Assembly: GCA_030655755.1 (NCBI GenBank)
Contig: JAUSOQ010000057.1
Coordinates: 1-64,000, forward strand
DNA: 64,000 bases
Direction: 5' to 3'
Source of the DNA: Coriobacteriia bacterium
GTDB lineage: Bacteria > Actinomycetota > Coriobacteriia > Anaerosomatales > Anaerosomataceae
Positions within the stretch are counted from its first letter, which is position 1; each line of letters begins with the position of its first letter. The notes beneath the pieces were generated by a model, which saw only the letters and a program-made list of their open reading frames with translations, was not told the DNA's origin and did not search any database. This document shows positions 75-12,322 of this stretch, piece by piece. Made by a program: the position numbers and the translations under genes.

Positions 75-155
75 CCAGGGCATCCAGCAGACGGCCAGGA
101 GCGTTAGGATGAAGAGAGGCGTATCGGCCGCAGCTGATGCCCAAAGACGTTCGGC
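69..155 (+). repeat. attC-like site 1
   Basis: The outer ends GTCTGAC and GTTCGGC flank an imperfect inverted repeat: GGCATC-CAGC-GGCC on the left pairs with GGCC-GCAGCTGATGCC on the right. The internal part (CCAGGAGCGTTAGGATGAAG) recurs in altered form near 12,197 and 13,299. The right core departs from the GTTRRRY consensus at one position. Confidence 0.55.
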
Positions 156-234
156 GGAGCCCTTCGAGCAGGGTGGCAGCAAGCGAGATTATCGTGTAAT
201 CTGATTCTCAGATACTTGAGTTAGGAGCAACGAG

Positions 235-3303: not shown

Positions 3304-3402
3304 GCCTAACCCGCGCTTCCACACAGACGGCGCGCTTCGTGCGGTAGACTCGGGCGGAAGGCACTCGCCGGCGCGCCGCTGGTGAAGCGCCCAACGTTAG
3401 AT
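3304..3402 (+). repeat. attC-like site 4
   Basis: Both cores match the consensus: GCCTAAC on the left and GTTAGAT on the right. The arms GCGCTTCC-ACAGACGGCGCGC and GCGCGCCGCTGGTGAAGCGC pair along most of their length, with a loop of about 35 bases between. This is one of the clearest sites in the array. Confidence 0.82.
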
Positions 3403-3453: not shown

Positions 3454-3735
3454 ATGATCAAGTCGTTCGCCGACAGCGAGACCGAGAAGGTGTTCAATCG
3501 GCAGTTCTCGAAGAAGCTGCCGGGCGACATCCAGGCCGTTGCGCTGCGCAAGTTGAGGATGCTCAACAACGCTCACGCCATCAACGACCTGCGAAGCCCT
3601 CCGGCCAACCGGCTCGAGAAGCTTTCCGCGGACCGCGAGGGCCAACACAGCATCCGCATCAACGATCAGTGGCGCGTGTGTTTCGTGTGGGACGACCGTG
3701 ACGCGTACGACGTGGAGATCGTCGACTATCACTAG
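3454..3735 (+). CDS. higB: HigB-type RelE-superfamily mRNA interferase toxin
   Basis: The 93-residue protein has the HigB pattern: MIKSF-D at the start, RKLRML in the middle, the NRLEKL-GQHSIRINDQWR segment and a VEIVDYH end. These toxins cleave mRNA on the ribosome. Gene order is toxin first and antitoxin second, as is usual for HigBA, with 14 bp between the genes. The two genes fill one cassette between attC-like sites 4 and 5. Confidence 0.92.
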   Translation: MIKSFADSETEKVFNRQFSKKLPGDIQAVALRKLRMLNNAHAINDLRSPPANRLEKLSADREGQHSIRINDQWRVCFVWDDRDAYDVEIVDYH

Positions 3736-3749
3736 AGAGGAGGCCTACG

Positions 3750-4055
3750 ATGACGAACAAGATGCTCGCACCCGTACACCCCGGAGAGGTGCTGCTCGAG
3801 GAGTTCCTCAAGCCGCTCGGGCTCAGCCAGAATCGTCTGGCCTTGAGCCTCAACGTGTCGCCCCGGCGCATCAACGAGATCGTGCTCGGCAAGCGCCGCG
3901 TCAGCGCAGAGACCGCGCTGCGGCTCGCTCGCTACTTCGATACGACGCCCCAGTTCTGGCTTGGACTGCAGGCGGACTACGATCTGGACGTCGCGTCCGA
4001 CGAACTTGGCGAGCGCTTGAACGTAGAGATTCGCGGTCACGCGATCGCAGTGTAG
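3750..4055 (+). CDS. higA: HigA-type HTH antitoxin
   Basis: The 101-residue protein has an Xre-type helix-turn-helix: HPGEVLLEEFLKPLGLSQNRLA, then RINEIVLGKRRVSAETALRLARYF and the QFWLGLQADYDL segment typical of HigA. It would bind HigB and repress the operon. A GAGAGGAGG ribosome binding site precedes the ATG. Length and order match the family. Confidence 0.93.
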   Translation: MTNKMLAPVHPGEVLLEEFLKPLGLSQNRLALSLNVSPRRINEIVLGKRRVSAETALRLARYFDTTPQFWLGLQADYDLDVASDELGERLNVEIRGHAIAV

Positions 4056-4062
4056 AGTCAGA

Positions 4063-4118
4063 ATCTAACAAGCAGTTCGAGCCGACCCGCTTCGCGGGCG
4101 GCTCAACTGCCGGACGGA
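4063..4118 (+). repeat. attC-like site 5 (right core degenerate)
   Basis: The left core ATCTAAC fits the consensus. A near-perfect hairpin follows: CAGTTCGAGCCGACCCGC pairs with GCGGGCGGCTCAACTG over a TTC loop. The expected GTTAGAT-like right core is replaced by GCCGGACGG, so the site may be decayed or recombined at its right end. Confidence 0.62.
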
Positions 4119-4145
4119 CGCGACGAGGCACACGAGGGGGGCCGG

Positions 4146-4709
4146 ATGGGGCGTAGTGGTCGCACGACAGTCGACCCAACGACGATACTCGAAGCTGCGC
4201 GCGAGTTCCGCACCTCAGCCGACCGCCTGCTCGCACAGGTTCAGACAATGTATCCGGGCCGCATCCCACCGTTCGCTACTCTTGCCCCGGGGTTTGCTCT
4301 GAGCGCATTCTCGGTCGAGCTGGCGCTCAAGGCGCTCATCTTGCTTGAATCTGGCCAGTGCCGGCGCGGTCATGATCTCGGCAAGTTGTACAAGATGGTC
4401 TCGCCGGCGAGCCAGATTGTCTTAGCAAAGGAATTCACGGCGCGATGCGAACAAAACCCGGTCCTGATGCAGATTCGGACTGACGTTATCGCTGATGGCG
4501 GCGATATCCCGTTGACTATCGAGTCGGCCTTGGACGAAGTGGGGAGCTCGTTCGAAAGCTGGCGGTACGTCTACGAAGGTAATCTGCCTAGTGTCTACGG
4601 GCTACAGGAGGCCTTCGTCGCCATCAGCACCAGAATGGCTGAGTTGAGGTCAGCTAACAACGGCGGGCCCGTGAGTGAGTCGATGCGCTGCCCGACCGCT
4701 GAGCAGTGA
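4146..4709 (+). CDS. HEPN-like protein of unknown function
   Basis: The 187-residue protein is helical. A central stretch, FALSAFSVELALKALILLE followed by GHDLGKLYKMV, resembles HEPN-domain proteins, in which such helices form the nucleotide-binding or RNase fold. A canonical RxxxxH catalytic motif is not obvious. The stop overlaps the GTG start of the SNF2 gene by 4 bp, so the two are translationally coupled. The pairing with a SNF2 helicase and a SWIM protein suggests a shared defence or nucleic-acid role, which is inference. Confidence 0.6.
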   Translation: MGRSGRTTVDPTTILEAAREFRTSADRLLAQVQTMYPGRIPPFATLAPGFALSAFSVELALKALILLESGQCRRGHDLGKLYKMVSPASQIVLAKEFTARCEQNPVLMQIRTDVIADGGDIPLTIESALDEVGSSFESWRYVYEGNLPSVYGLQEAFVAISTRMAELRSANNGGPVSESMRCPTAEQ

Positions 4710-7321
4710 CAGAATCAATGAGGAGGATGCTCGACTTGGAATTCGTGTTCAAGCGCGATGGCTTCGCGCTGGACATGTCGTCTGGCAACCACTCGCCTGA
4801 AGAGAATCAGTGGCTGGACCGTTTCCAGCATGACAAGTGGCACGCCCTCTTTCATCTGGGGCAATCAGGCTACCATTCGGCGCCCGCATCCTCACTCGAG
4901 TTTCTCCTTCGGCTTGCTCGCGAGTACTTCGCGCTGCTTGCGCGCTCCAGCGACCTGGAGCTCAGGCGAGCGGCAGTGGATCTCGAGGTATCCGACGAGG
5001 CCGTGGCCGCAGCGCTCTCCGAAATACCGTTCGCGGTAGGGTCCGAACATCTCACGCCCAAGTGGGTGCGCAATGTTTACGCCCGGCTGCATGAGGTGTT
5101 TCAAAGCGATATTGCCGTGTGGGACGGTTCAGTCGAGTCGTACTTCACTCAGAAGGGACTCGCTCATGCCGGAGGGCGGCTGATCTTCCACCTGGCCGAA
5201 CGCAGAAACAGCAACACGCCCTTCGCCTTCCTGGCAACCTATGCCGTCGAAGGTGCAGAAGGCGCAATCACCCACCTCAAGTTGAAGCAGGCGCTCGATC
5301 AGTTTCAGGACAACCAATCAGAACTACTCCGCATCGTCTCAATTCTTGAACGAGCGCAGAAACGCAGCGGCTTCGTTCGCTCGTTTATCGAATCAGGCGA
5401 CTTGTTCCATGCCGTTGAAATGAGCGCGCAGGACACCTATAGATTCCTTCAAGACGTAGCGACGCTTGAGGAACTCGGAATTAAGTGCCGCACGCCGGTC
5501 TGGTGGAAGCCTACGGGCAAACGGTCTCGAATAGACGTCCGTGCGTCACTGCTTCGAAACTATACGCGGGAGATCACGGGGCAGTTTGGCCTTGGGACGC
5601 TCGTGGAGCTGCAGCCGATCATGAGCATCGACGGCACGCTGATTACTGAGAGCGAGATCAGGGAGCTACTTGAAGTCTCTGACGGGCTCACCCTACTGAA
5701 AGGGAACTGGGTTGAAGTCAACCATGAGCGGTTGGCCTCAATGCTTGAGGTATTCGAGAAGCTCAAGGACACGGAGCTTACAATTGCGGATGCTCTGCGT
5801 GGGAGCTTGTCGCCGATTGATCTTCCCGATGACTTTGACATCGAGGTCGATAACTCACTCTGGCTCGCGGAGATGCGGCTTACAACGGACAACGCCGGAT
5901 TGGACTCCTCACCGCAAGCCCCGGACACGTTCCACGCGGACCTTCGACCCTACCAGGCCTTGGGATTCGCCTGGCTGTGCCGCATGGCCTCCTTGGGGTT
6001 CGGTGCGTGCCTCGCGGATGATATGGGTCTGGGCAAGACCGTTCAGGTACTCGCGTTGCTTGAGAAGTTGCGCATCGAACATCCAGAGCATAGGACACTT
6101 CTGATCGTGCCAATGTCTCTGCTGGCCAATTGGACGCACGAACTGAAGAAGTTCGCACCATGCATGCCGTATTCCGTGATCCATCGTTCGGCAGACGACT
6201 ACGCTGCCGTGGACTTTGCTGACCTGCCATTCTTATCAATCACCACATACGGGATGATTGTGCGCCGTCCTGAGTTTCACGATATGGCCTGGAATCTAGT
6301 CATCCTGGACGAGGCTCAAGCCATCAAGAACCCCGCCTCTTCGCAAGCCGTAGCGGTGAAGAAGTTGCGGCGTCACAACTGCATCGTCATGACAGGGACG
6401 CCTGTTGAGAACAAGCTGTTTGACCTATGGTCACTGTTTGATTTCCTTAACCCGGGACTTCTCGGTTCGGCGAAAGAGTTCGCATCCTCCGAGATGCGCT
6501 ACAAGCCGAGTGAGATACGAAAGATCACAGGGCCCTTTGTTCTGAGGCGATTGAAGACGGACAAGACCGTCATCGCTGATCTTCCTGAGAAGAACGAAAT
6601 AGATCAGTACGTTTCGCTCAGCAAGGACCAGAGAATTCTCTATCAACAGATCATTCGGAGCTTGCAGGAAGATTTCAATCGCGGCGATGTACGCCACACC
6701 AACGCGAAAGTGCTGACTGCTATATCGGCCTGCAAGCAGGTCTGCAATCACCCTGACCAGTTCCTCGGGCTTAGGGGGTTCGATCCTGAACGAAGTGGTA
6801 AGTTCCTAGCGCTGCGCCAATTATGCGAGACGATTCACGATAAGCGCGAGAGAGTAATCGTCTTCACGCAATATCGCGAGATCACGCAGCCGTTGGCGGA
6901 CTTCTTGGCTAGCGTGTTCGATCATCCAGGACTCGTGTTTCACGGAGGCCTGACTCAGCGCCAAAGGGCCCGCGTGCTGGATGAGTTTCAAGGCGATGGG
7001 GACGCCCCGTTCATTGTTATGTCCATTAAGGCAGGTGGCGTAGGTTTGAATCTCACTGAAGCTAACAACGTCATCTTGTTTGATCGCTGGTGGAACCCGG
7101 CAGTTGAGCAACAGGCAATTGACCGGGTCTTTCGTATCGGGCAGACACGCGACGTCATGGTCCATAAGATGGTCGTGGCGGATACTATCGAAGAGAAGAT
7201 CGTCGAAGTACTGAGGACCAAGGGATCCTTGGCAGATGCCGCAGTGGGTGCGGGTGGGGGTCTGGCGGAGACCCTGAGTATCGATGATCTCGTTGCTCTA
7301 CTGCGATCGGAGATCGTTTGA
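4706..7321 (+). CDS. SNF2-family helicase-like ATPase
   Basis: The 871-residue protein has an N-terminal region of about 400 residues with no recognised fold, then a SNF2 core. Motif I is DDMGLGKT near residue 440, motif II DEAQ near 535, and the C-terminal lobe has GGVGLNLTEAN and QAIDRVFRIGQT near 800. All catalytic motifs look intact, so ATP-driven movement on double-stranded DNA is expected. It starts at GTG overlapping the HEPN-like gene; an ATG at 4718 is an alternative. The SWIM gene follows with a 1-bp overlap. Base composition is less GC-rich than that of the housekeeping genes. Confidence 0.92.
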   Translation: MTESMRRMLDLEFVFKRDGFALDMSSGNHSPEENQWLDRFQHDKWHALFHLGQSGYHSAPASSLEFLLRLAREYFALLARSSDLELRRAAVDLEVSDEAVAAALSEIPFAVGSEHLTPKWVRNVYARLHEVFQSDIAVWDGSVESYFTQKGLAHAGGRLIFHLAERRNSNTPFAFLATYAVEGAEGAITHLKLKQALDQFQDNQSELLRIVSILERAQKRSGFVRSFIESGDLFHAVEMSAQDTYRFLQDVATLEELGIKCRTPVWWKPTGKRSRIDVRASLLRNYTREITGQFGLGTLVELQPIMSIDGTLITESEIRELLEVSDGLTLLKGNWVEVNHERLASMLEVFEKLKDTELTIADALRGSLSPIDLPDDFDIEVDNSLWLAEMRLTTDNAGLDSSPQAPDTFHADLRPYQALGFAWLCRMASLGFGACLADDMGLGKTVQVLALLEKLRIEHPEHRTLLIVPMSLLANWTHELKKFAPCMPYSVIHRSADDYAAVDFADLPFLSITTYGMIVRRPEFHDMAWNLVILDEAQAIKNPASSQAVAVKKLRRHNCIVMTGTPVENKLFDLWSLFDFLNPGLLGSAKEFASSEMRYKPSEIRKITGPFVLRRLKTDKTVIADLPEKNEIDQYVSLSKDQRILYQQIIRSLQEDFNRGDVRHTNAKVLTAISACKQVCNHPDQFLGLRGFDPERSGKFLALRQLCETIHDKRERVIVFTQYREITQPLADFLASVFDHPGLVFHGGLTQRQRARVLDEFQGDGDAPFIVMSIKAGGVGLNLTEANNVILFDRWWNPAVEQQAIDRVFRIGQTRDVMVHKMVVADTIEEKIVEVLRTKGSLADAAVGAGGGLAETLSIDDLVALLRSEIV

Positions 7322-8058
7322 TGTCCTGGGAACTTGATGAGAACGGATTCTATAGGCAACCCTTGCAGCAAGAACTCAAAGTTCGAGCTGCCGCCACCAA
7401 GCAGAGGCTGGCCAATGCGACGCAGTCGCTCTCCCCGATCACAATGCCCGAGGGCGGGCGTACGCGGATTGTATCCACATGGTGGAGCGACGCGTGGTGC
7501 TCGAATCTCGCAAGTTACGCTGACCTGCAGAATCGTGTGGCCAGAGGTAGGAAGTACCTCCGCGCCGATGCGGTCATCGACCTCCAAGTTGCCACGGGAC
7601 GAATTGCCGCACTGGTCCAGGGCTCCGTGGTTGAGCCGTACAGGGTTCAGATCGAGATTCAGACGTTGGATGAGAATCGGTGTCGCGATATCCAGCGTTA
7701 CTGCGCAGAGCGCATGACCGGCCTTGAGACCTTGATGGCCGGAGCGCTGCCTCAGGAGCTCGCGGACCTCTTCACTGATTCGCGGACCGGGCTGTTTCCG
7801 TTAGAGCAGGAACTCAATCCGTGCTGTTCCTGCCCCGATGTTGCCTGGGTCTGCAAGCACACCTTCGCCGTGTTGTACGGAGTCGGCAGCAGGCTTGACG
7901 ACAATCCGCTTCTGTTGTTTCAGCTTAGAGGAATTGATGTAGCGGAGCTAATTAGCAAGTCGGTCGACGCACGAGTCTCCTCCCTGCTCGAGCGCGCCAA
8001 CGAAGCGGGTCATACGGATTTAGATGATGATGACTTGAAGGGGACCTTCGGACTATAG
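7321..8058 (+). CDS. SWIM zinc-finger protein
   Basis: The 245-residue protein carries a SWIM zinc finger near residues 168-180 (CSC-PDVAWVCKH), of the form CxCx(n)CxH, thought to bind DNA or protein. SWIM proteins are frequent partners of bacterial SNF2 ATPases. The rest (EVGSTSAP-free, mixed alpha/beta) has no recognised domain. It starts at ATG one base inside the SNF2 stop codon and ends 33 bp before attC-like site 6, so the HEPN-like, SNF2 and SWIM genes form one cassette-borne operon. Confidence 0.85.
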   Translation: MSWELDENGFYRQPLQQELKVRAAATKQRLANATQSLSPITMPEGGRTRIVSTWWSDAWCSNLASYADLQNRVARGRKYLRADAVIDLQVATGRIAALVQGSVVEPYRVQIEIQTLDENRCRDIQRYCAERMTGLETLMAGALPQELADLFTDSRTGLFPLEQELNPCCSCPDVAWVCKHTFAVLYGVGSRLDDNPLLLFQLRGIDVAELISKSVDARVSSLLERANEAGHTDLDDDDLKGTFGL

Positions 8059-8091: not shown

Positions 8092-8153
8092 GTCCAACAA
8101 TGAGATCAACCTGACAACGCTTCGCGTTGCGGGTTATCTCACAGACGTTAGGC
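8092..8153 (+). repeat. attC-like site 6
   Basis: The 62-bp site has left core GTCCAAC and right core GTTAGGC. TGAGATCAACCTGACAACGC pairs with GCGTTGCGGGTTATCTCA around a TTC loop, with small bulges on one strand. This is a textbook attC architecture. Confidence 0.87.
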
Positions 8154-8183: not shown

Positions 8184-8672
8184 ATGGCGACCATTGTGTC
8201 TCTTCGCCAGGTGGTCGACGAACTCGACATCCTGACAGACGAGTCCAGCGTCTACCTCAACCGGCAGACGGGCGAACTCTACACGCTCCCGGATGAGGTG
8301 GCGGGCATGGTCGAGGACGATGCCGATCCGGAGGACCTTGCCGAATGGCTGGGTGACGAAGTCCCCAAGGTCCGCGAGATCCTCGAGTCGGAGGACTGGC
8401 TCGCCCTACCCACGAGGTTCGACATCCACGAGTGGGCGATCATGGACGATTTCGCCCGCTCAATCGACGACCCCGAACTTCAGGATGAGTTGCTGGGTGC
8501 CATCCGGGGCCGTGGGGCGTTCCGATACTTCAAGGACACCATCCACCGGCGCGAGATCCAGCAGGACTGGTATGACTTCAAGACAGCGGCGCTCGCACAG
8601 ATTGCCGCTGACTGGCTCGATGGGCACGGCATCTCCTACACTCGTGACGCAGGTGCATCGCCGGCGGGGTAG
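8184..8672 (+). CDS. UPF0158 family protein
   Basis: The 162-residue protein matches the uncharacterised UPF0158 family: an N-terminal strand-rich part with VYLNRQTGELYTL, then an acidic helical region (FDIHEWAIMDDFA) and a C-terminal RGAFRYFKD-WYDFK block. No biochemical role is established for the family. The ATG at 8184 is chosen because GGAGGGG precedes it; an earlier in-frame start would lie inside attC site 6. It is the sole gene of a cassette between sites 6 and 7. Confidence 0.85.
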   Translation: MATIVSLRQVVDELDILTDESSVYLNRQTGELYTLPDEVAGMVEDDADPEDLAEWLGDEVPKVREILESEDWLALPTRFDIHEWAIMDDFARSIDDPELQDELLGAIRGRGAFRYFKDTIHRREIQQDWYDFKTAALAQIAADWLDGHGISYTRDAGASPAG

Positions 8673-8921: not shown

Positions 8922-8943
8922 GCCAATGTACTTGGAGGCAACG

Positions 8944-9231
8944 ATGCAGCCAATCAAGTTCGATGAGGACATCCGACCACTTTCGGAGTTTCGCGCCGGG
9001 GTCGCCTCCTTCGTCAAGCAGGTGAATGACAGTGGCCGACCACTCGTGCTGACGCAGCGCGGTCGAGGAGTCGCGGTCGTCGTCGACATTCGCGAGTTCG
9101 AAGCTATGCGAGAGAGGCTGGTGCTTCTCGAGGATATTGCCGTTGCGGAGGCGCAGCTCGCCGCCGGCGAAGGTATCCCGCACGCTGAAGCTAAGGCCCG
9201 AGTACTTGAGAGCATTCGCAAGTGCAGGTGA
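8944..9231 (+). CDS. Phd/YefM-like antitoxin
   Basis: The 95-residue protein has the Phd/YefM fold signature: PLSEFRAGVASFVKQV, then PLVLTQRGRGVAVVVDIREFEAM, and a charged C-terminal tail ending RVLESIRKCR. It should bind the ParE-like toxin and repress its own promoter at the palindrome upstream. The ATG at 8944 follows TTGGAGG at good spacing; earlier in-frame starts would run through the operator. It overlaps the toxin gene by 10 bp. Confidence 0.9.
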   Translation: MQPIKFDEDIRPLSEFRAGVASFVKQVNDSGRPLVLTQRGRGVAVVVDIREFEAMRERLVLLEDIAVAEAQLAAGEGIPHAEAKARVLESIRKCR

Positions 9232-9518
9232 CTTGGACCGACCCGGCTCTCGAACGGGTCAGAGAGATTGCGCTTCATATAGCGCTCGACGATGTAGATG
9301 CAGCGGAACGATGGGCTGTCGGAGTCTTCGATGCAGTCGAACGGCTGGCGACCTTCCCGGAATCCGGACGCGTGGTTCCGGAGTTGGGCTCCCGCACAGT
9401 CCGCGAGTTGATCCTGGGATCGTATCGAGTGTTCTACCGCGTTGGCCAGGCGGTTGAGGTGCTCTCAGTCCGGCACGGCAGCCAGCTGATTCGCGCTGAG
9501 GAAGTCCACGAGGACTGA
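9222..9518 (+). CDS. ParE-type RelE-superfamily toxin
   Basis: The 98-residue protein fits ParE/RelE plasmid-stabilisation toxins: WTDPALERVREI at the start, AERWAVGVFDAVERLATFPESGR in the middle, then VRELILGSYRVFYRV and a terminal VLSVRHGSQLI. ParE members poison gyrase, and RelE members cleave mRNA; sequence alone does not decide which. It starts at GTG inside the antitoxin gene and ends just before attC-like site 9. Confidence 0.9.
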   Translation: MQVTWTDPALERVREIALHIALDDVDAAERWAVGVFDAVERLATFPESGRVVPELGSRTVRELILGSYRVFYRVGQAVEVLSVRHGSQLIRAEEVHED

Positions 9519-9596
9519 CCTAGCGGATCGAGCGGGCGGCGGGAGCGCTACAATCAAGCAAGGGATGGGCCGCCGCTCATCCGCAATGCGTTAGGA
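9514..9596 (+). repeat. attC-like site 9 (copy of site 2)
   Basis: The right core is GTTAGGA, and the stem GCGGATCGAGCGGGCGGC/GCCGCCGCTCATCCGC is the same as in site 2. Bases 9522-9592 are identical to 932-1002. The left core (near TGACCTAG) is degenerate. Confidence 0.68.
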
Positions 9597-9680: not shown

Positions 9681-9917
9681 ATGAACACCAAACTCACCCT
9701 GCGGCTCGATGACAAGCTCATCGCAAGCGCCAAACGCCGCTCGGCCGAATCTGGCAAGTCCGTTTCGCAGCTCGTCTCGGACTTCTTCACTCTGATCGAT
9801 GCAGAGGACGCTGGCATCGAGATCACCCCTCGCGTCCGCTCGCTTCGCGGAGTGCTTGCCGGCTCCAACTTGGACGAGAGCGACTACCGCCGTCACCTTG
9901 AGGAGAAGTACCGGTGA
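9681..9917 (+). CDS. Ribbon-helix-helix antitoxin
   Basis: The 78-residue protein starts with a ribbon-helix-helix strand and helix (TKLTLRLDDKLIASAKRRSAESGKSVSQLV, quoted only as its outline: TKLTLRLDD, then SGKSVSQLVSDFF), followed by a toxin-binding tail (RGVLAGSNLDESDYRRHLEEKY). The ATG at 9681 follows CAGGAGG. It overlaps the PIN toxin gene by 4 bp. It is expected to bind the palindrome upstream and to neutralise the toxin. Confidence 0.88.
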   Translation: MNTKLTLRLDDKLIASAKRRSAESGKSVSQLVSDFFTLIDAEDAGIEITPRVRSLRGVLAGSNLDESDYRRHLEEKYR

Positions 9918-10336
9918 AGGTGCTGTTCGATACGAACGTCGTGCTCGACCACCTATTGGGCCGTGAGCCCCACGCTGACACGGCGGAACGACTGCTGAAC
10001 CTCGTCGACACGGGGAGGATCGACGGGGTCATCTGTTCTACGACCGCCACGACCATTCACTATCTGGCGTCCAAGGCGGTCGGAGCGTCGGCGGCTATGG
10101 ACTATCTCCGCAAGCTGCTCGCGATGTTCGATGTAGCGTGCGTGGACCGGGAAGTGCTTCAGGGCGCGCTCGACCTGGGCTTCACGGACTTCGAAGATGC
10201 CGTTTTGCATGAAGCGGCCTGCAAGGTCGGTGCAGCGGCAATCGTGACTCGCAATGGCAAGGACTTCGTGCGGTCGTCACTGCCGGTGTTCAGCCCCTCT
10301 GAGCTTCTCGCAGCCGTGTACGCCGAACCCAAGTAG
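9914..10336 (+). CDS. PIN-domain toxin
   Basis: The 140-residue PIN domain has Asp6 in LFDTNVVLDHLL, the conserved TTIHYLASK segment in the middle, and DFEDAVLHEAA with AIVTRNGKDF near the end. These supply the metal-binding acidic cluster of this subfamily. RNA cleavage is the expected activity. It starts at GTG overlapping the ribbon-helix-helix antitoxin. The C-terminal half is closely similar to the broken gene at 11,907-12,179. Confidence 0.9.
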   Translation: MKVLFDTNVVLDHLLGREPHADTAERLLNLVDTGRIDGVICSTTATTIHYLASKAVGASAAMDYLRKLLAMFDVACVDREVLQGALDLGFTDFEDAVLHEAACKVGAAAIVTRNGKDFVRSSLPVFSPSELLAAVYAEPK

Positions 10337-12179: not shown

Positions 12180-12255
12180 GCGCAACAGCAGAACGCCAGG
12201 AGCGATAGACTGAAGTGAGCGCAGAAGCCGCAGCTGATACGCTAAAATATTGGGC
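12173..12255 (+). repeat. Degenerate attC-like site 11
   Basis: The internal block CCAGGAGCGATAGACTGAAG and the GCCGCAGCTGAT arm match site 1 almost base for base. The outer ends (CACCTAAG and ATTGGGC) are far from consensus. It follows the same protein tail as site 1, so both probably derive from one ancestral cassette end. Confidence 0.45.
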
Positions 12256-12322
12256 AGGGCTCAGATTTTGCGAGGGGTAGGTCGGCGGCGAGAGCTGCGC
12301 GTCGCTGATGGGACTGGGGCTG

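Follow-up and report, generated by a model that had tools for sequence, protein, structure and literature searches.

A HEPN-like gene coupled to a widespread SNF2-SWIM pair in an actinobacterial integron array

SWI2/SNF2 ATPases associated with SWIM-domain proteins have been described as widespread in mobile systems (PMC5512222), and the literature that we searched contained no functional study of SNF2-SWIM pairs. HEPN-SNF2 fusions and HEPN genes in restriction-modification (R-M) operons are likewise documented (PMC3710099), and PrrC is a HEPN tRNase that is kept silent by the type I R-M complex sharing its operon (PMC3710099). Several accepted HEPN families have lost the catalytic Rx4-6H motif or carry it in altered form. 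The HEPN-T (AF0298-like) and AbiV families do without the motif histidine; they retain the arginine, together with another histidine in the loop that follows helix 2 (PMC3710099), and an alternative active site has been suggested for them (Anantharaman et al. 2013, PMC3710099). Here we describe an operon in which a HEPN gene is coupled to an otherwise ordinary SNF2-SWIM pair. The coupling is what sets it apart: the second and third genes are a known, common, stand-alone module and not a new duo.

The operon and its SNF2-SWIM module

The operon lies in the window, the whole analysed stretch of 64,000 nucleotides, which is the start of contig C45 in an assembly of 2.13 Mb. The initial annotation described three overlapping open reading frames, and these are present at exactly the coordinates it gave:

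4146-4709, + strand: HEPN-like gene (gene 1), 187 aa, with E58-x3-K62, GHDL (H76) and WRYxYE (R140), without Rx4-6H
4706-7321, + strand: SNF2-family dsDNA translocase gene (gene 2), GTG start, 871 aa, with DUF3670 N-terminal to the motor
7321-8058, + strand: SWIM zinc-finger partner gene (gene 3), ATG start, 245 aa, with C169-x-C171-x6-C178-x-H180

Genes 1 and 2 overlap by 4 bp and genes 2 and 3 by 1 bp, the A of the gene 3 ATG at 7321 being also the final base of the stop codon of gene 2; overlaps of this size on one strand imply co-translation of the trio. The sequence allowed no promoter assignment. The GTG start of gene 2 at 4706 agrees with the N-termini of homologues, as in the protein from locus L051 (MAESMRTIQPLQFVF vs VTESMRRMLDLEFVF, aligned from residue 1).

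The recognition of gene 2 as an SNF2 motor is borne out by Pfam matches to PF00176 (189 bits), Helicase_C (80.8 bits) and DUF3670, and by a two-lobe motor with intact motifs (Walker A DDMGLGKT, the DEAQ box and the C-terminal motifs), whose columns are invariant with homologues. It is the sole PF00176 match in this genome. Its closest PDB match is SsoRad54 (1z63, E 1.4e-107), and the best NCBIfam match, to the SCO1167/SCO6262 helicase family, is sub-threshold. In the tree the protein occupies a long lone branch (1.47); its placement among Bacillota does not count as evidence for a Bacillota origin, the branch being too long. Gene 3 reaches only 14.1 bits against the SWIM Pfam model, under the cut-off of 19.6, but every homologue aligned keeps the C-x-C-x6-C-x-H ligands, and the SWIM assignment holds despite the score. 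The predicted structure of the SWIM partner is confident (pLDDT 87), and a PDB search with it returned no significant match, with ZSWIM8 first at E 0.73.

To place the pair, we fetched 80 public genome loci through a SWIM alignment search. They come from at least seven phyla, including Bacillota, Spirochaetota, Synergistota, Thermodesulfobacteriota, Nitrospirota, Planctomycetota and Actinomycetota. An SNF2 gene or fragment lies upstream of the SWIM gene on the same strand in 79 of the 80, normally adjacent to it; the one exception is a contig that starts at the SWIM gene, and in L093 the two genes are 1.6 kb apart. Not one of the 80 loci contains a BLAST match to gene 1 (E 0.01). The genes upstream of the pair vary widely in the 65 loci where they could be assessed, and no HEPN domain appeared among the 39 upstream neighbours (all at least 100 aa) scanned against Pfam. 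PADLOC models were matched at E 1e-25 by few of the 149 proteins neighbouring SNF2-SWIM pairs, as a raw count. The pair also occurs on plasmids and some viral contigs. On a Robbsia plasmid (L005) it directly follows a run of integrase and ATP-binding genes, an arrangement that may represent a mobile element. In the host's phylum the SNF2-SWIM pair is accessory, 66 of 397 genomes having a SWIM profile match. None of 60 relatives showed the SWIM gene, three genomes of the host's order gave only partial SNF2 matches, and the trio is absent from that order.

The HEPN-like gene and the contexts of its relatives

Gene 1 scores 18.1 bits against PF05168, under the cut-off of 22, and its identification as HEPN-like holds only after more sensitive tests. 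A two-sequence profile, built from gene 1 and an Eleftheria plasmid protein, was aligned by hhalign to 22 PF05168 proteins with 92.5% probability (P 4.8e-7; 0.1% for three unrelated controls) and a four-sequence profile with 89.5%, both alignments spanning only the first half of the HEPN domain, up to GHDL. An intermediate is provided by the relative L181, which clears the PF05168 cut-off (23.5 vs 22 bits) and aligns with gene 1 over 146 columns at E 3.8e-6. L181 and a further relative, L180, both from the host's class, carry GHDL and WRYxYE or a close variant, and E58, K62, H76 and R140 are invariant in four aligned members of the family. The initial annotation named a lack of HEPN similarity on structure prediction as a refuting outcome; the single-sequence AlphaFold2 model (pLDDT 40, all-helical) is uninformative, and the similarity is present by profile comparison. 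Judged from these alignments, gene 1 is a divergent HEPN protein. Its conserved residues match the alternative AF0298/AbiV layout, and its RNase activity is uncertain because Rx4-6H is missing.

Of the useful relatives of gene 1, the host's class alone supplied two and viral contigs supplied one. Nothing convincing was found in 297 Actinomycetota, 297 Desulfobacterota, 300 Bacillota and 199 Planctomycetota genomes or in phages, and pattern scanning with gene 1 alone likewise yielded nothing convincing on viral or genome contigs. Two weak matches, L103 and L106, were not real on inspection, and L148 was judged spurious.

Each of these three relatives lies beside or near restriction or methylase genes. 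The gene for L181 (locus L188, 8053-8481) lies in a type I R-M operon between hsdM (N6_Mtase, 224.7 bits), which it overlaps by 1 bp, and hsdS (Methylase_S, 89 bits). The order hsdM-HEPN-hsdS is a PrrC-like arrangement with a non-canonical HEPN. The gene for L180 (locus L187) shares a run of same-strand genes with Mrr (Mrr_cat, 102.7 bits). Between the two, at 3642-5950 of that locus, are two genes without a Pfam match, and the 507-aa product of one weakly matches the PADLOC candidate PDC-M09B. The viral relative (L190) neighbours a D12 adenine methylase gene on a contig that also has a Mu-type portal gene. We prefer a conflict-related role chiefly because of these three contexts, along with the HEPN-SNF2 fusions and R-M-operon HEPN genes on record, and the trio is probably conflict-related.

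The initial annotation likened the combination of an SNF2 motor, a SWIM partner and an HEPN-like protein to defence architectures. For the SNF2-SWIM pair itself this is weakened, since the pair is widespread and stand-alone and has mixed neighbourhoods; the restriction genes beside the HEPN relatives, by contrast, favour defence. A similar division applies to recurrence, where confinement of the trio to this genome was named as a refuting outcome: we found no second HEPN-SNF2-SWIM trio in the public collections searched, which exclude Pseudomonadota chromosomes and metagenomes, yet the HEPN relatives sit with restriction genes.

The integron array and the borders of the mobile unit

The trio sits in a genuine chromosomal-integron array, with these elements around it:

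3304-3402, + strand: nearest intact attC site to the left of the trio (GCCTAAC / GTTAGAT)
3454-3735, + strand: HigB-like toxin gene (PF05015, 69.6 bits)
3750-4055, + strand: HigA-like HTH antitoxin gene (PF01381, 46.9 bits)
4062-4115, + strand: left-hand attC remnant between HigBA and gene 1, with R'' box ATCTAAC and a hairpin with one extrahelical base, without a GTTRRRY core
8092-8153, + strand: right-hand attC site with the canonical boxes GTCCAAC and GTTAGGC

Scanned for attC sites with both boxes intact, the window gave 3304-3402 and 8092-8153; its other 51.5 kb gave no site, and neither did 40 Markov-simulated arrays. The same assembly encodes an integron integrase (C68:54997-55941, 478.7 bits vs a cut-off of 265), with two attC sites downstream of it near the contig end. 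The first 12 kb of the window look like part of this integrase's array, a joining of the two contigs that we infer. One family of attC-like elements, found at window positions 85-160 and 12186-12260 and again after the integrase on C68 (L012, 3560-3660), ties the window to that integron. Two other attC-like elements, at 932-1005 and 9522-9595, lie 8.6 kb apart and are 99% identical over 74 bp, which suggests recent cassette duplication or a common origin. The array looks rich in toxin-antitoxin cassettes: pairs of Phd/VapC-like, RelE/ParE-like and PIN-domain type were recognised by eye at 235-908, 8941-9518 and 9681-10336, the Pfam search covering HigBA. The cassette after the trio (8184-8672) encodes a UPF0158-family protein.

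The description of the trio as a single 4-kb cassette survives at one end only. At the 3' end the attC site at 8092-8153 has both its R'' and R' boxes. At the left border, the sequence at 4062-4115 has a strong, stable hairpin of attC type (-21.2 kcal/mol, z -4.5), but the GTTRRRY core, the site where the integrase exchanges strands, is absent, so that movement of the trio by itself is doubtful. With this core lost, the excisable unit probably also takes in the upstream HigBA, giving about 4.75 kb with 3304-3402 as the nearest intact left site. The trio and HigBA may thus be tied together as a single mobile unit.

Possible roles and comparison with known systems

Our tentative reading is that an existing SNF2-SWIM module gained a coupled HEPN gene, whose product would serve as an effector or accessory gated by a DNA tracker in an abortive-infection-like defence. 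The module would have acquired the translationally coupled gene in front of it and would now travel in the integron array. The SNF2 and SWIM proteins may act as a complex, loading onto dsDNA and travelling along it, with SWIM as the DNA-contact subunit. The HEPN protein could bind this complex, acting as an RNA-directed effector or, if the non-canonical site is inactive, as a nucleic-acid-binding adaptor. By analogy with PrrC, we propose that the motor would hold HEPN in check and release or recruit it on meeting foreign or abnormal DNA, and the outcome might be a defence resembling abortive infection that protects the cell or the mobile array. The position of the trio among toxin-antitoxin cassettes, its absence from the host's order and the intact motor are in favour of such a defence; against it, the trio was seen once, and the SNF2-SWIM pairs of other genomes come without HEPN and show no obvious placement in defence islands. 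The occurrence in one genome lowers our confidence, which the restriction contexts of the HEPN family raise again. A phage-defence role is plausible from sequence and context, although the specific form of a three-component anti-phage system, carried as an integron unit, in which the SNF2-SWIM complex would license a non-canonical HEPN RNase, seems to us unlikely.

The SNF2 and SWIM proteins could instead be a general repair, recombination or transcription-recycling pair, a Rad54-like motor with a Shu2/Sws1-like SWIM mediator, for which the HEPN-like protein is a substrate-binding accessory without any defence function. The presence of the pair in at least seven phyla, next to genes that vary and are mostly of housekeeping type, would fit this, as would the SsoRad54 and sub-threshold SCO1167/SCO6262 matches and a HEPN protein that lacks the canonical catalytic motif. 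We nonetheless regard it as rather unlikely: the pair is accessory in the host's phylum and missing from the host's order, plasmids and some viral contigs carry it, and the HEPN relatives lie near restriction genes. Chance assembly, in which an orphan HEPN cassette was fused to an SNF2-SWIM cassette and the three genes do not cooperate, would account for the single occurrence, for the unrelated neighbours of the gene 1 relatives and for the completeness of SNF2-SWIM without HEPN. A 4-bp overlap with a homologue-consistent GTG start is, however, the usual sign of a coupled operon, and no attC remnant separates genes 1 and 2; we consider this origin improbable. Slightly more improbable still is a toxin-antitoxin-like unit that mainly stabilises the integron array, with HEPN as a toxic RNase neutralised by SNF2-SWIM or by the upstream HigA. 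HEPN proteins are common as toxins (PMC3710099), the array holds toxin-antitoxin genes, and HigBA is directly upstream with the intervening attC core lost. Yet an 871-aa ATPase would be an unusual antitoxin, there is no MNT partner gene, and the HEPN relatives stand singly in R-M operons.

If the three-component anti-phage system that we consider unlikely is real, orphan SNF2-SWIM modules across bacteria would be DNA sensors that accept exchangeable effectors, a function that can be tested. The coupled HEPN gene, from an R-M-associated family, offers one concrete and testable hypothesis for what an SNF2-SWIM pair can do, and with the trio an actinobacterial integron gains a candidate conflict module.

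Among described defence systems, Zorya and DISARM share with this operon only the SNF2 motor (PADLOC 370 bits for ZorD and 141 bits for DrmD). Around the SNF2 gene we find HigBA, HEPN, SWIM and the UPF0158 protein, and no further Zorya or DISARM component was identified beside it. Membership of Zorya was rejected with no ZorA, ZorB or ZorC nearby and a ZorD NCBIfam equivalog score of 237 against a cut-off of 1500; that of DISARM with no DrmA, DrmB, DrmC or methylase adjacent and a DrmD equivalog score of 106 against 950. PrrC with its type Ic R-M system (PrrI) offers a functional analogy only: there, too, the HEPN protein shares its operon with a DNA-translocating complex by which it could be gated, but PrrC has its own ABC ATPase and a canonical Rx4-6H, and our operon has neither HsdM nor HsdS. 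Closer to gene 1 are the HEPN-T (PF05168) and AbiV families (PMC3710099), which resemble it in the Ex3K of helix 2, the GHDL histidine after helix 2, the WRY arginine, the lack of Rx4-6H and genomic links to R-M genes. Gene 1 differs in being too divergent for the Pfam cut-off and in having SNF2-SWIM as its partner, in place of MNT or R-M subunits. The SWIM-associated SWI2/SNF2 ATPases (SsoRad54-like; PMC5512222) share the SNF2 gene with an adjacent SWIM gene in the same order and on the same strand, with 35-44% identity along the full SNF2 protein. Set against them, the window operon is distinguished by an SNF2 protein on a long lone branch and by the HEPN gene coupled in front, which in the collections searched was found in this operon only.
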